Shown one piece after another: positions 53,789 through 58,758 of a DNA stretch of 64,000 nt. The DNA is taken from positions 1 to 64,000 of the forward strand of contig QBMH01000006.1 of assembly GCA_003249025.1 (NCBI GenBank). The letters are read 5' to 3'. How positions within the stretch are numbered: the stretch's first letter is position 1; each line of letters begins with the position of its first letter. The notes under the pieces are model-generated. The model was not told where the DNA came from. It did not search any database and saw only the letters and a program-made list of their open reading frames with translations. The DNA comes from Leptolyngbya sp. Lineage in GTDB: Bacteria > Cyanobacteriota > Cyanobacteriia > Leptolyngbyales > Leptolyngbyaceae. The position numbers were made by a program, and so were the translations under genes.

Positions 53789-54319
53789 ATGAAAGCACTT
53801 CACCTTCTGGTTTCTGCTGTTGCTGTCACTCTGACAACCGCTTGTTTTGCCCTACCATCGTTTGCTCGTCCGGCAACGCTGGTCGCCCAGGATTCTAGCA
53901 GTCGGATCAACGTTCGCTCTGCACCCACGATCGCGTCATCTCGTGCCCATTATGGTTTGGCAGGCGATCGCGTCGAGATCATGCGCTCCATGCGGGGGAG
54001 CGATCGCGCAATGTGGGACTATGTGCAATTTTCTTCAGGTGCGAAAGGGTGGGTGCGCGGTGATTTTGTCAGATATACCGAAGGGATGGCGGAGTATGGT
54101 GTGTTGGCAGGTAAGGCGGGCGATCGGATTAATGTTCGCGCGAATCCATCCACTTCAGCCCAGTCTCCTCACTACGGATTGCAAGGCGATGTGGTGCAAA
54201 TGCTGAACCAAAAAAATACCAATGATGGCTACGTTTGGCACTTTGTCCAGTTTCCCTCTGGTGCGAAAGGCTGGGTACGCAGTGACCTGATTAGCCGCAT
54301 GGATGAAGGCGGCTGTTAG
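53789..54319 (+). CDS. Secreted protein with two SH3b domains
   Basis: A 176-residue exported protein with a signal peptide (about 1-26, ending SFARP). Two tandem bacterial SH3 domains follow (about 36-97 and 109-170), each with a RINVRxxP motif, a HYGL segment and a GAKGWVR(S/G)D(L/F) ending. SH3b pairs usually bind peptidoglycan or other envelope ligands. No catalytic domain is present. It is monocistronic, with its own hairpin after the stop, and it borders the AT-rich ParA/ParB cassette. Confidence 0.85.
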   Translation: MKALHLLVSAVAVTLTTACFALPSFARPATLVAQDSSSRINVRSAPTIASSRAHYGLAGDRVEIMRSMRGSDRAMWDYVQFSSGAKGWVRGDFVRYTEGMAEYGVLAGKAGDRINVRANPSTSAQSPHYGLQGDVVQMLNQKNTNDGYVWHFVQFPSGAKGWVRSDLISRMDEGGC

Positions 54320-54329
54320 GAGTTTAGAG

Positions 54330-54357
54330 TAGGGCGATCAAACGCGAGATCGCCCTA
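54330..54357. terminator. Hairpin between convergent SH3b and ParB-like genes
   Basis: TAGGGCGATC (54330-54339) pairs perfectly with GATCGCCCTA (54348-54357). There is no T tract, and the arm touches the ParB-like stop codon. It could end both converging transcripts. Confidence 0.6.
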
Positions 54358-55128
54358 TTCACAAGCGTTAATAATTGCATCAATGAGTTTATCTTTTCTC
54401 CAGTTTGAGTAACCCTTCAAGCCTTTCCCTTTAGCAATTGGTTTGAGGTTGCTTATGGACATTAAATTAAGCTTCTCTTTTGAGTAAGAAGATTGCTCTA
54501 GACATATTACCTGTTTGGGCAAAACCACTTCTGTCTTCTCTTGAAGCTGATCTTCAATTGCTGCTTCAATCTTCTCAACTTTGGAAAAAAGTTCGCCCAG
54601 CTTATTGTCTAACTTACGGTCAATGGATTCTTCAAATCGATTAAAAAATAGTTCAATTTTTCTAGACATATCAGAAAGTTGATTACTCAGGTTATCTTTC
54701 AAATTGTCATCATTAAATTCTTCATATTTTCCAGCATCTTTAGTTGAATCAGTAGTTAGAACATTACTTCCACCTGCCAGCAGTTCCATTTCTTGCCGAG
54801 CAATCTGAGCCTCTTCATCGGTCATATTAAAGACCCAGACCCACAATTTTTCAATCCCAATTTCTTTGGCAACTAAGTACCAATCCACTCCATAAACCAC
54901 CTCATATTCTTCTTCCTCACTGTAAGCTTCCGTGCGGCGAACAATCAGCGAGATTAAGTTCGTTTCTTGCTGAGTCAGGCTGTGTTTGATTGCCTCAAAT
55001 CTTTCAGAATCAACTTTTATAGGTGTAGAAGGTGGCACTGCCATTTGAAAAGTATAAATCTGACCATGGCTAGTCGATTTGATTCGTAAATATTCAACAA
55101 TTTTTTTTTGACGCTCTGCGTAATCCAT
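54355..55128 (-). CDS. ParB-like protein with C-terminal Rho-N/SAP-like domain
   Basis: A 257-residue protein. The N-terminal third (about 25-110) resembles a ParB/sulfiredoxin-fold domain, with LIVRRTEAYSEEEEYEVVYG and VDWYLVAKEIGIEKLWVWVF, a form I associate with cyanobacterial partition proteins. The middle (about 130-195) is charged coiled coil. The last about 35 residues (LMSISNLKPIAKGKGLKGYS then WRKDKLIDAII) look like the Rho N-terminal/SAP-like nucleic-acid-binding motif. I choose the ATG at 55128, which has AAGGAG five bases upstream; a GTG two codons earlier overlaps the previous stop. It is translated from the same operon as the nuclease-ParA fusion. Base composition is AT-rich compared with the flanks. 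Confidence 0.8.
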   Translation of the reverse strand: MDYAERQKKIVEYLRIKSTSHGQIYTFQMAVPPSTPIKVDSERFEAIKHSLTQQETNLISLIVRRTEAYSEEEEYEVVYGVDWYLVAKEIGIEKLWVWVFNMTDEEAQIARQEMELLAGGSNVLTTDSTKDAGKYEEFNDDNLKDNLSNQLSDMSRKIELFFNRFEESIDRKLDNKLGELFSKVEKIEAAIEDQLQEKTEVVLPKQVICLEQSSYSKEKLNLMSISNLKPIAKGKGLKGYSNWRKDKLIDAIINACE

Positions 55129-55130
55129 CT

Positions 55131-56615
55131 TCACTCCTTTCTACTCGTGGTGCTGATCAAATGCTTTGCTAAATTTAAGTAAGAATAAAATGCATCTTGG
55201 GCGGCTTCTTTTTCTCTCCGGTCTAAATCCTGATCAAATTCAGCGAAACAGATTGGATAGCCTTTATTAGGTATCGTAGAAATAATAGAAAGATTTGGAA
55301 TCCATGTACTTTCTGGATAGATTTCCACTCCAGCAGCACCAGGAACTTTCTGTAAAATATTCGTGAGTTGTTCAATCATCTCTAAGGAAACTCTAGTAGC
55401 AGTCCTGTTATACATACTGACAGCAATCCCCAAAATTGGAAGTGTGCCTTCTTTCACCTCATTAGTTGCGATCGCTCTGGCTACGACGTACTCTAAAGCT
55501 CGAATGGGATATGAGGATAGTTGGGTCGGAATCAAAACGCCTGAAGATGCCATCAGCGCAATACTATTAGCCTTACCAAAAGAGGGCGGCGGATCAATCA
55601 GAATATAATCGTACTCGTCAACATATTTCTTTGTCTTTTTAGCTAGAACTCGATCAATATCAGGAGTCGTCATCAAGGTTGCCTCCATATCGCTTAACCG
55701 AATATGCGATGGGACAATATCTAGACTTATATCATCCCAACGCTTTTTAATAATCACCTGTTCAAGACTTACTCTTGGCTCAACCAGTAGGTGAGAAATA
55801 TCTTTTTTCCCTTGTTTTTCTACATCGTCAAGTGGATCAATTCCTAAACCCATTGTTAAGTTTGCCTGCGGATCGACATCAATTAGCAAAACCCTTTTTC
55901 CTAGCTTACTTAGTGCAGCAGCAAGGTTAATAGTGGTAGTTGTTTTTCCGACTCCGCCCTTGTTATTGAAAACTGTAATAATCATTGCTTTCTCACTCGT
56001 TTTAGATTGAATAGGACTTTTGCTCAAATCTCGCCCTGTGTCAGGCTCAAAATTTTCTTCGCCGATGAGAAGTTTGGCTTTATCTTTTCCTAACAAAGCT
56101 TTTGAAATAATTGATAGAAATTTTGTTTTGATACTTAACTGATTTCTTCTCATCTCCTTAGAAAAAATCAAAAGAGCTTTTTTACTCAAAACTGTGTAAA
56201 GTAAATGATTTTCTATCGCTGGGTTGAGGGATAAATCTGACTGTGAATATTCAGCAATCTTTAATATTTTGCCTTGATGATTACAGAGCAAATAGAACGT
56301 ATATCCATTTGTCAGAAGCCCTAATACTGCTTCGGTTTGACGCATATATTCATTGATTTGCCAAACACAATTCTCCAGATTTTTCTTAGGTGCCTTTGTT
56401 TCAATGACTAGATATGCTGAACTGTAGCCTTGAGTTGCCTTAAAGCTAATTAAAAAATCAATTTTTGAACTGCCAATTCCTACTTGAGTTTGCCAATCTT
56501 CATTGGAATATCCAAGTAGATGAAGCAAAGGAACAATAACTTTGTGTTCTACATCAGATTCACTACTTTCAAGAGTAATCGTTGCCAAAAAATCTAAGCA
56601 AGCTGAGTTGATCAA
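55131..56615 (-). CDS. HsdR-N-like PD-(D/E)xK nuclease domain fused to ParA ATPase
   Basis: A 494-residue fusion. Residues about 1-150 resemble the N-terminal nuclease domain of type I restriction subunit R: VEHKVIVPLLHLLGY (E23), KIDFLI (D53) and IETKAP (E72-x-K74) supply a complete PD-(D/E)xK set. A linker (about 150-208) leads to a ParA/Soj ATPase (211-494) with deviant Walker A KGGVGKTT (219-226), LLIDVDPQANLT, and the switch/Walker B YDYILIDPPPS. The start is probably the TTG at 56615, with an in-frame stop four codons upstream. Met211 could start a free ParA, but the upstream frame is intact and motif-rich. The cassette is AT-rich: one sampled 60-base line is 35% GC, against 55% for one in the aminopeptidase gene. 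Partition, defence or both are possible roles. Confidence 0.8.
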   Translation of the reverse strand: MINSACLDFLATITLESSESDVEHKVIVPLLHLLGYSNEDWQTQVGIGSSKIDFLISFKATQGYSSAYLVIETKAPKKNLENCVWQINEYMRQTEAVLGLLTNGYTFYLLCNHQGKILKIAEYSQSDLSLNPAIENHLLYTVLSKKALLIFSKEMRRNQLSIKTKFLSIISKALLGKDKAKLLIGEENFEPDTGRDLSKSPIQSKTSEKAMIITVFNNKGGVGKTTTTINLAAALSKLGKRVLLIDVDPQANLTMGLGIDPLDDVEKQGKKDISHLLVEPRVSLEQVIIKKRWDDISLDIVPSHIRLSDMEATLMTTPDIDRVLAKKTKKYVDEYDYILIDPPPSFGKANSIALMASSGVLIPTQLSSYPIRALEYVVARAIATNEVKEGTLPILGIAVSMYNRTATRVSLEMIEQLTNILQKVPGAAGVEIYPESTWIPNLSIISTIPNKGYPICFAEFDQDLDRREKEAAQDAFYSYLNLAKHLISTTSRKE

Positions 56616-56791
56616 AATATCTAGCTAGGCTTGGGTTTATATTCATTACAGAATGCCCCCATCTAAACCTATTTGCACAAATAAAAGGAACGAACAAAAT
56701 CGAAATTCATAGAAACTTGCTTTGAAGACAAGAAAGATATACTGATACTTCTTTCGCAGTACCCGGAAGAGGCGATTTTTGAGGTTGGGTT

Positions 56792-58681
56792 CTACAAGGT
56801 GCAGGTTTGGCTGAGCCAGTCGGCATCGGATGGACTGAGGGTGGGGGTGAGTTTGGCGAGAATGGCGTGATAGTAGCGGTCTAGCCAGGTGCGTTGGCGG
56901 GAGTCGAGGCGCGTGAAGTCGATTAGGCGGTTGTCGAAGGGAATGTAGGTGAGGGACTCGAAGCCATACCAGGGAGTTTTGGCTGTGTTGGAGTCGTCCT
57001 TTGTTTCTTGGGGCATTTCCACGATCGCATACAGATTTTCAATCCGAATGCCGCCCCAACCCGGTTGATAGAAACCCGGTTCAATGCTGGTGATCATGCC
57101 CGGTTCCAGGGTTTGGCTGACGCGCTTGCTGATGCCGTTGGGTCCCTCGTGGACGTTGAGAAATGCGCCAACACCATGCCCAGTGCCATGTCCATAATCC
57201 AATCCAGCGTGCCACAAAGTCGATCGCGTGATGCCGTCGAGTTGCGCTCCGGTGGTGCCCTTAGGAAACTGCTGCATGGCGCAGTTGATATGGGCTTTCA
57301 GCACTTCGGTATAGCGTTCAATTTGGTCTGGAGTGGGCGTACCGACGACAAAGGTGCGGGTGTCATCCGTGGTGCCAGCAGCATATTGAGCGCCGGAGTC
57401 GAGCAGCAACAACTCCCCTGACTGCAAAACCTTTTCGGGATTGGGAGTGCCGTAGTGAACGATGGAACTATTGCTGCCGCTGCCGGCGATCGTGTTAAAG
57501 CTCAACCCTTGAAAGCCCGCTTCTTCCTGATAAAAGCCCTCAATCGTAGCGGCAACATCGGCTTCCGTTAGGCGGTTTTCCGCTGCAAGCTGATCAAACA
57601 GCCATTTCATCGTCCGAGTTTTGGCACGGCTGGCTTTCAGGTTTGCGTGCTGCATTTGCGCGATTTCGATCGCGTTTTTGCGTGCCTTCATGTCCTCAAC
57701 GGGGTTTGCCGTTTCCACAATTTTGCAGCGGGTTTGTCCCGGTGCTGGCTTCAAAATCTGGTAGGTGCCCATGGTCGTATGCTTGGGATCAATCAGCACA
57801 CGGCTATTGGGTGTGAGCAGCGATCGCAGAGTGGTCACATAGTCGTCGTAGGGCAGCAGGGTTAGATGTTGGGCGAGTTGCTGCTGCAAAGCGGGGTTAA
57901 TCCGATGCTCGTTGGTAAACAAAAACGCCTGCTCAGCCGTCACGATCGCATAGGCAATGAAAACCGGATTGTAGGACACATCCCAACCGCGTAGATTAAA
58001 TAGCCACGCAATTTGATCCAATTTGGTAATCGGTAAAATCTGGGCGTTTGCCTTTTCCAATTTTTCGCGGGTGCGCGCCAGCTTTTGGGCGATCGCTTCC
58101 CCCGTTTGCTCATCTGACAAGGCAAATAGCGGCGAATCGGCGTAAGCAGGCAAAATTTCGTCTGCCCAGGACTGCGATCGCACCTGATCCACGAGATTCG
58201 TGGCGATCGGCACCAACACCACGCCCCAAGATTCCACCTTTTTGTGAAAGTCGCGAAACTGACTGACGGATAGCGTAAACGGATCATAGCCCAGTCGAAT
58301 TTCCTGACCTGCTTTAGTCGCCTCTCGCCCTAACGCTTCCACCACTTCTTCCAGGGTTTTGTGGTCATCCAATCCCACTTTTGACACCTGAATCAGGTCG
58401 GTATCCACTTCCAAATCCGCTTGCTCGTAGTAGCGAGAATCGACAAACACCCACGCCTGAGTGTGCCCCACCAAAAAGTCGCCCGATGATCCCGTAAAAC
58501 CGCTTGCCCACTTACGCCGCTGCTTAATCTCTGGCAGATACTCATTCAAATGTTCATCTGCTGAAGGAATTAGATAAGCATCCAAAGCCTGAGCCGCCAA
58601 GAGCGATCGCAGTGCAGCTAACTTTGCCGCAACATCTGTAGCTTGAGTGGTTGGAGCTTGGAGTAATTCGATAGGAGTCAT
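56792..58681 (-). CDS. Xaa-Pro aminopeptidase (aminopeptidase P, M24B family)
   Basis: A 629-residue metallopeptidase that removes N-terminal residues preceding proline. Two creatinase-like N-terminal domains (about 15-330; LIPSADEHLNEY near the start) precede the pita-bread catalytic domain (about 340-570). Its metal ligands are in LLLDSGAQY, TDDTRT, GHGTGHGVG and SIEPGFY, then IRIENL. A C-terminal extension of about 60 residues is typical of the long eukaryote-like form. I start at the ATG at 58681, since upstream residues derive from repeat DNA. It is cytoplasmic. Its 3' end borders the AT-rich cassette, 176 bases away. Confidence 0.92.
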   Translation of the reverse strand: MTPIELLQAPTTQATDVAAKLAALRSLLAAQALDAYLIPSADEHLNEYLPEIKQRRKWASGFTGSSGDFLVGHTQAWVFVDSRYYEQADLEVDTDLIQVSKVGLDDHKTLEEVVEALGREATKAGQEIRLGYDPFTLSVSQFRDFHKKVESWGVVLVPIATNLVDQVRSQSWADEILPAYADSPLFALSDEQTGEAIAQKLARTREKLEKANAQILPITKLDQIAWLFNLRGWDVSYNPVFIAYAIVTAEQAFLFTNEHRINPALQQQLAQHLTLLPYDDYVTTLRSLLTPNSRVLIDPKHTTMGTYQILKPAPGQTRCKIVETANPVEDMKARKNAIEIAQMQHANLKASRAKTRTMKWLFDQLAAENRLTEADVAATIEGFYQEEAGFQGLSFNTIAGSGSNSSIVHYGTPNPEKVLQSGELLLLDSGAQYAAGTTDDTRTFVVGTPTPDQIERYTEVLKAHINCAMQQFPKGTTGAQLDGITRSTLWHAGLDYGHGTGHGVGAFLNVHEGPNGISKRVSQTLEPGMITSIEPGFYQPGWGGIRIENLYAIVEMPQETKDDSNTAKTPWYGFESLTYIPFDNRLIDFTRLDSRQRTWLDRYYHAILAKLTPTLSPSDADWLSQTCTL

Positions 58682-58758
58682 AAAGAATGGCGAATGAAGA
58701 ATAGCAAGTGGCGAATAACAATGTGGCAAAGGGGCAGTAGATGAAGGGATTCTAGCAC

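Follow-up and report, generated by a model that had tools for sequence, protein, structure and literature searches.

ATPases of the ParA family have known roles in positioning DNA, protein machines, and division proteins, and their ATP-bound dimers bind DNA. Wadjet/MksBEFG is a plasmid defence system in which a DNA-organising NTPase is coupled to a nuclease; its motor belongs to the SMC family, and its nuclease differs from the one described here. Excerpts of a survey of the ParB-CTPase fold describe ParB-like proteins that have diverged and gained further domains, often encoded on mobile elements, and give the ParA-binding motif at the ParB N-terminus as [LFI]G[KR]G[LFI] (PMC12704722). The window, the whole stretch of 64,000 nucleotides of Leptolyngbya sp. 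(contig QBMH01000006.1) that was analysed, possesses a two-gene cassette in which a PD-(D/E)xK-type nuclease and a ParA ATPase share one frame, followed by a ParB-like partner. The nuclease, which is under constraint, stays linked to the ATPase and to a partner with a variable tail, and the same chromosomal slot can be occupied by a complete cassette of one subfamily or another, depending on the genome. To judge from sequence comparison, there is about an even chance that the cassette is a two-gene system directed at foreign DNA, with a nuclease gated by ATP and a specificity partner that can be exchanged.

The fusion gene (55131..56615, minus strand) encodes 494 amino acids from a TTG start with no internal stop. 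Its nuclease domain comprises approximately residues 17-113 (56277..56567, minus strand), including E19, E23, D53, E72, and K74, and the Pfam family HSDR_N_2 covers residues 22-111 with 29.4 bits against a cut-off of 25. The ParA ATPase domain, delimited by Pfam, AF2, and Foldseek, comprises residues 211-487 (55155..55985, minus strand) with the motif KGGVGKTT and the signature lysine K219. AAA_31/ParA matches residues 212-378 with 156.9 bits, K219 and K224 are invariant, and the deviant Walker A is present with its signature lysine intact. The AF2 model of this half has a pLDDT mostly above 85, and its best Foldseek matches are Soj/ParA structures.

The partner gene (54355..55134, minus strand) encodes 259 amino acids from a GTG, but the ATG at 55128 is the likelier start, which lies two bases beyond the TGA stop of the fusion (55133-55131) and is preceded by a Shine-Dalgarno-like AAGGAG (55134..55139, minus strand) within the last codons of the fusion. 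It is composed of a degenerate ParB_N-like domain (54808..55014, minus strand; Pfam and family profile), in which GVDWYLVA replaces GERRxxA, a coiled coil, and a Rho_N/SAP-like C-terminal tail of type S (54364..54471, minus strand), a module swapped among relatives. The tail scores above the cut-off for Rho_N (27.5 versus 24.9 bits), while ParB_N is weak in the window partner (18.1 versus 26.3) and is matched in 13 of 22 members of the partner family, whose profile matches Spo0J/ParB/Noc structures over the N-terminal domain (1vz0, E=8e-9). The CTP-binding motif (G[ED]RR or GxRR) was absent from the first 140 residues of all 80 partners, as was the ParA-binding motif from all 80, and the ParB HTH family had no Pfam match among 22 partners. 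The partner thus reads as ParB-like but not ParB.

The cassette has a GC content of 0.37-0.40 against about 0.50 in its surroundings, and its setting is chromosomal because housekeeping genes lie around it, including rpoB, rpsT, and hisD (named from translations). The slot is bounded on the left by an SH3-domain gene (53789..54319, plus strand) and on the right by a pepP-like aminopeptidase gene (56792..58729, minus strand), recognised by flank comparison. A repeat search found a 13-nt inverted repeat (54327..54360; 92%) where the SH3-domain gene and the cassette converge; it is a probable two-way terminator. On the pepP side, all that the window retains of an aspartyl-protease-like gene is a remnant of its 3' end (56745..56794, minus strand; 82.6% match to L341:2435-2480); the gene stands whole beside pepP in the sister species (L341 ORF 2404-2862). 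The preliminary description of this DNA had recognised an HsdR-N-like domain joined in one frame to a complete ParA, the residues E23, D53, E72, and K74, a next gene two bases on with an AAGGAG site, a ParB-like domain and Rho_N/SAP tail in its product, and the AT-richness of the pair amid GC-richer genes, all of which agree with the present analysis.

The N-terminal part of the fusion, used as a query, was found in 31 of 97 cyanobacterial relatives and the partner in 20. Strong matches to the fusion profile occur in 64 of the 386 phylum genomes, of which 63 belong to the class of the window, and a further, more divergent set in the phylum carries the same fusion (profile search). About 95 cyanobacterial loci were compared, and the fusion is intact as one frame at 81 of 95, which rules out the frame error that the earlier account had allowed for, with two domains that are otherwise always separate genes. 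The partner lies directly downstream at 77 of the 81 intact-fusion loci, and this shared gene order is therefore more than chance. The four remaining loci include L041, where a short frame, truncated by a contig end, lies 61 bp downstream and received no profile score, and G064, where the partner lies elsewhere in the genome. In G064 (L065, L066), a complete chromosome, the fusion and partner are approximately 1 Mb apart (1.187 Mb and 2.231 Mb) and both apparently intact. No other conserved neighbours were found beyond the pair, save a stand-alone ParA at some loci. The cassette is accordingly no isolated curiosity but a conserved system.

The ParA-domain tree has three well-supported clades, F1 (to which the window belongs), F2, and F3, and these subfamilies are old. 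Members of one subfamily were found at many unrelated sites, and the nearest relatives of the window cassette belong to other families (f25, f19, and f16), which points to horizontal movement. The fusion ORF is not intact at 14 of 95 loci, some of which are merely cut by contig ends. In the broken copies (L040, L046, L055, L063/L064, L304, L305, L307, L310, and L321), the breaks fall within about 60 codons past the ParA Walker A (window residues ~221-282) with the nuclease frame whole; no later ParA breaks were seen. Search bias and contig ends account for part of this pattern. Programmed frameshifting near codon 240 is a conceivable source of the broken copies, but most copies are in frame.

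The same slot may hold different cassettes or none. In G002 and G012, the window slot is empty and the SH3-domain gene directly adjoins pepP, and in the sister species G001, it is occupied, within a single contig, by an F3 cassette that lies on the other strand (L341:292-2315). A second slot, beside the stand-alone ParA, is empty or holds F1 or F2, depending on the genome. This neighbour is a ParA of about 300 aa (NMKGGVGKTT) from a single stand-alone cyanobacterial clade. It adjoins cassettes of both F1 and F2, usually head-to-head, at about 20 loci (L039, L056-L058, L072, L271-L273, L275, L279, L280, L282, L283, L286, L293-L295, L297, L300, L303, and L310). It is present in 35 of 97 genomes, is absent from the genome of the window and many F1 genomes, and is not essential to the cassette. 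Slot alternation together with frequent decay is, by analogy, the pattern seen in restriction and defence genes.

The C-terminal tail of the partner comes in at least three types, namely, S (Rho_N/SAP), H (helix-hairpin-helix-like), and T (a third helical type). Tail S occurs in F1, F2, and F3 and tail T in F1 and F2, and the fusion tree requires at least 12 changes of tail type. L293 and L297 share approximately 96% DNA identity over the fusion up to partner codon ~133 and then approximately 42% to the partner stop, which is a clean tail-module exchange. Another pair from one genus and the same slot, L039 and L072, is about 87-90% identical in the flanks and nuclease and about 71% in ParA; the partner tail is unalignable, and the far flank returns to about 87%. 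The dN/dS of the partner C-terminal part is 0.2-0.7 in most close pairs. The pattern of exchange matches that of a specificity subunit. Against a foreign target, such exchange could also come from a turnover of the proteins or sites that the partner binds. After the F2 cassette, four loci (L287, L289, L290, and L292) have, approximately 0.3-0.5 kb downstream of the F2 partner, an additional partner gene of F1 type (362-372 aa) that resembles an orphan specificity gene; in L291 it lies further away.

F1 and F2 N-domains fused to ParA were not found on 72,556 plasmids, F1 and F2 N-domains were not found in 50,697 phages, and F1-only and F2-only scans of viral contigs gave no match. The plasmid copies belong to F3 only and reside on two Nostoc plasmids (L330 and L331; Nostoc sp. 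UHCC 0870 unnamed9 and unnamed4), both of which also carry ParM, one having two ParA-ParB pairs in addition. This rules out the cassette as the partition system of its carrier plasmid. On these mobilizable plasmids, F3 adjoins a small site-specific integrase gene, on opposite sides of the integrase in the two. The suggestion in the preliminary description of a chromosomal relic of a plasmid partition module is contradicted for F1 and F2 by the plasmid search and by partners devoid of GERR/GxRR and the ParA-binding motif, and is also opposed by the F3 copies beside ParM and the ParA-ParB pairs. Its suggestion that the fusion may be undescribed has stood, with no account of an HsdR_N-ParA fusion found in the open-access full text searched.

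Cyanobacteria are polyploid, and the best-placed of the rival explanations is a partition or positioning system in which ParA and a ParB-like partner position the chromosome or plasmid, while the nuclease clears away copies that are unpartitioned, linked, or in surplus. It draws on the complete ParA and ParB_N-like partner within one operon, the repeated, usually head-to-head adjacency to the stand-alone ParA clade at about 20 loci, and the two F3 copies on plasmids. It is nevertheless unlikely. The cassette is patchy in both the phylum (strong matches in 64/386 genomes) and the relatives (31/97), its partners are devoid of GERR, the ParA-binding motif, and a ParB HTH match, and the carrier plasmids already have ParM and, in one case, ParAB. 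The parS search, covering the window cassette only, returned a terminator-like hairpin and weak palindromes with no repeated parS-like palindrome. Moreover, the stand-alone ParA is missing from the genome of the window and many F1 genomes, and tail swapping is not predicted by partition.

A selfish cassette is less likely again. It would be either an addiction pair, with the partner restraining a harmful nuclease, or a homing-like element that cuts empty slots to promote its own copying, and it would account for slots that exist both empty and filled, for broken copies that keep the nuclease frame and lose ParA, and for cassettes beside integrases on plasmids. However, no terminal repeats were found around the cassette in the window or the sister locus, one subfamily occupies many unrelated sites, and one slot has cassettes in opposite orientations. 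The unlinked and apparently intact fusion and partner of G064 would be odd for an addiction pair, and homing does not predict swapped tails.

HSDR_N_2 was matched in 19 of 23 members of the fusion family, in which HSDR_N matches are modest in score. The catalytic E/D/ExK set of the PD-(D/E)xK superfamily is conserved in 82/82 fusions; none of the 82 intact fusions deviates at E19, D53, E72, or K74, and position 23 is E in 63 of 82. The dN/dS of this domain is 0.05-0.31 in close pairs, which argues for strong purifying selection. In AF2, D53 and E72/K74 lie on successive strands after a long helix, an order that fits the PD-(D/E)xK core, but the pLDDT is 44-69, and AF2 run on the nuclease domain alone gave a poor model. 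A PDB sequence search with the nuclease profiles matched no solved nuclease and returned chance matches only. Among PADLOC models, mad2 was matched in 10 of 23 members and a type IIG REase-MTase in one, and N-6 methylase fusions of a related nuclease domain occur on Thermus plasmids. The domain resembles restriction nucleases, and the nuclease of the fusion looks active. The least probable rival, in which the HSDR_N domain is a DNA or protein anchor and not a working nuclease of an otherwise ordinary ParA positioning ATPase, would suit the modest scores, the lack of a sequence match to a solved nuclease, and the weak fold model, but is disfavoured by a catalytic set kept among 82 diverged fusions under strong purifying selection, because an anchor would not need it.

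For the ATP-gated nuclease with an exchangeable partner, the following course of events may be proposed. The partner would be the recognition (specificity) subunit, binding DNA via its SAP/Rho_N or HhH-like tail, and, by analogy with other ParA proteins, would recruit or trigger ATP-bound ParA dimers on the tail-bound DNA. The ATP-sandwich dimer of ParA could then pair two nuclease domains, leading to cutting, and ATP hydrolysis would reset the complex. The target would presumably be foreign DNA, of a phage or plasmid, and the cassette would serve in defence or exclusion, similar in its working to a restriction system without being one. Plasmid exclusion or phage defence, both named in the preliminary description, is plausible, and is strengthened because slots alternate and tails swap. 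A more specific proposal, an undescribed immune system, widespread among cyanobacteria, in which ParA gates the PD-(D/E)xK nuclease and the exchangeable tails of the ParB-derived subunit give specificity, has somewhat under an even chance. Partition machinery would in that case have become a means of restricting DNA, with recombination altering its specificity. A defence-island signal was not found, with few PADLOC matches in 116 neighbours, mostly to generic domains; no PADLOC model describes the system, which gave generic ParA and nuclease cross-matches only. A modification enzyme or other self/non-self discrimination was not seen at the loci.

With a widespread ParA fused to a nuclease, the ParA family would gain cutting as a further role, and the exchange of tails with a fixed nuclease offers a direct route to finding the targets. 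The cassette is common, consists of two genes, and can be transferred from one laboratory cyanobacterium to another, which makes it a directly testable candidate.

Among known systems, ParABS (Soj/Spo0J) shares with the cassette a ParA with KGGVGKTT and the signature lysine and a downstream ParB_N-like partner. Unlike ParABS, the cassette adds an N-terminal nuclease, its partner has no GERRxxA, ParA-binding motif, or ParB HTH, and no parS was seen in the window; its tails are exchangeable, its distribution is patchy, and its slots alternate. Type I restriction-modification (HsdR/M/S) resembles it in a nuclease of the HsdR N-terminal family with D...ExK and, in HsdS, a recognition subunit that swaps its DNA-binding part, as predicted for the putative one here. 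It differs in that, in the cassette, ParA stands where the SF2 translocase would be, a methyltransferase is missing, and the partner is unrelated to HsdS; SF2 translocase, HsdM methyltransferase, and HsdS genes were not among its conserved neighbours. Wadjet/MksBEFG likewise couples a DNA-organising NTPase to a nuclease, but the cassette uses ParA and PD-(D/E)xK, and no shared proteins were found. The profiles of MADS (mad2) and type IIG/HsdR-N methylase fusions are weakly matched by its nuclease, which is joined to ParA, whereas theirs is joined to methylases. In the excerpted survey of ParB-CTPase-fold proteins, no nuclease-ParA fusion is described, and the partner here travels with ParA and is not an orphan (PMC12704722). 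On these comparisons, the cassette could be assigned to neither ParABS nor restriction-modification.
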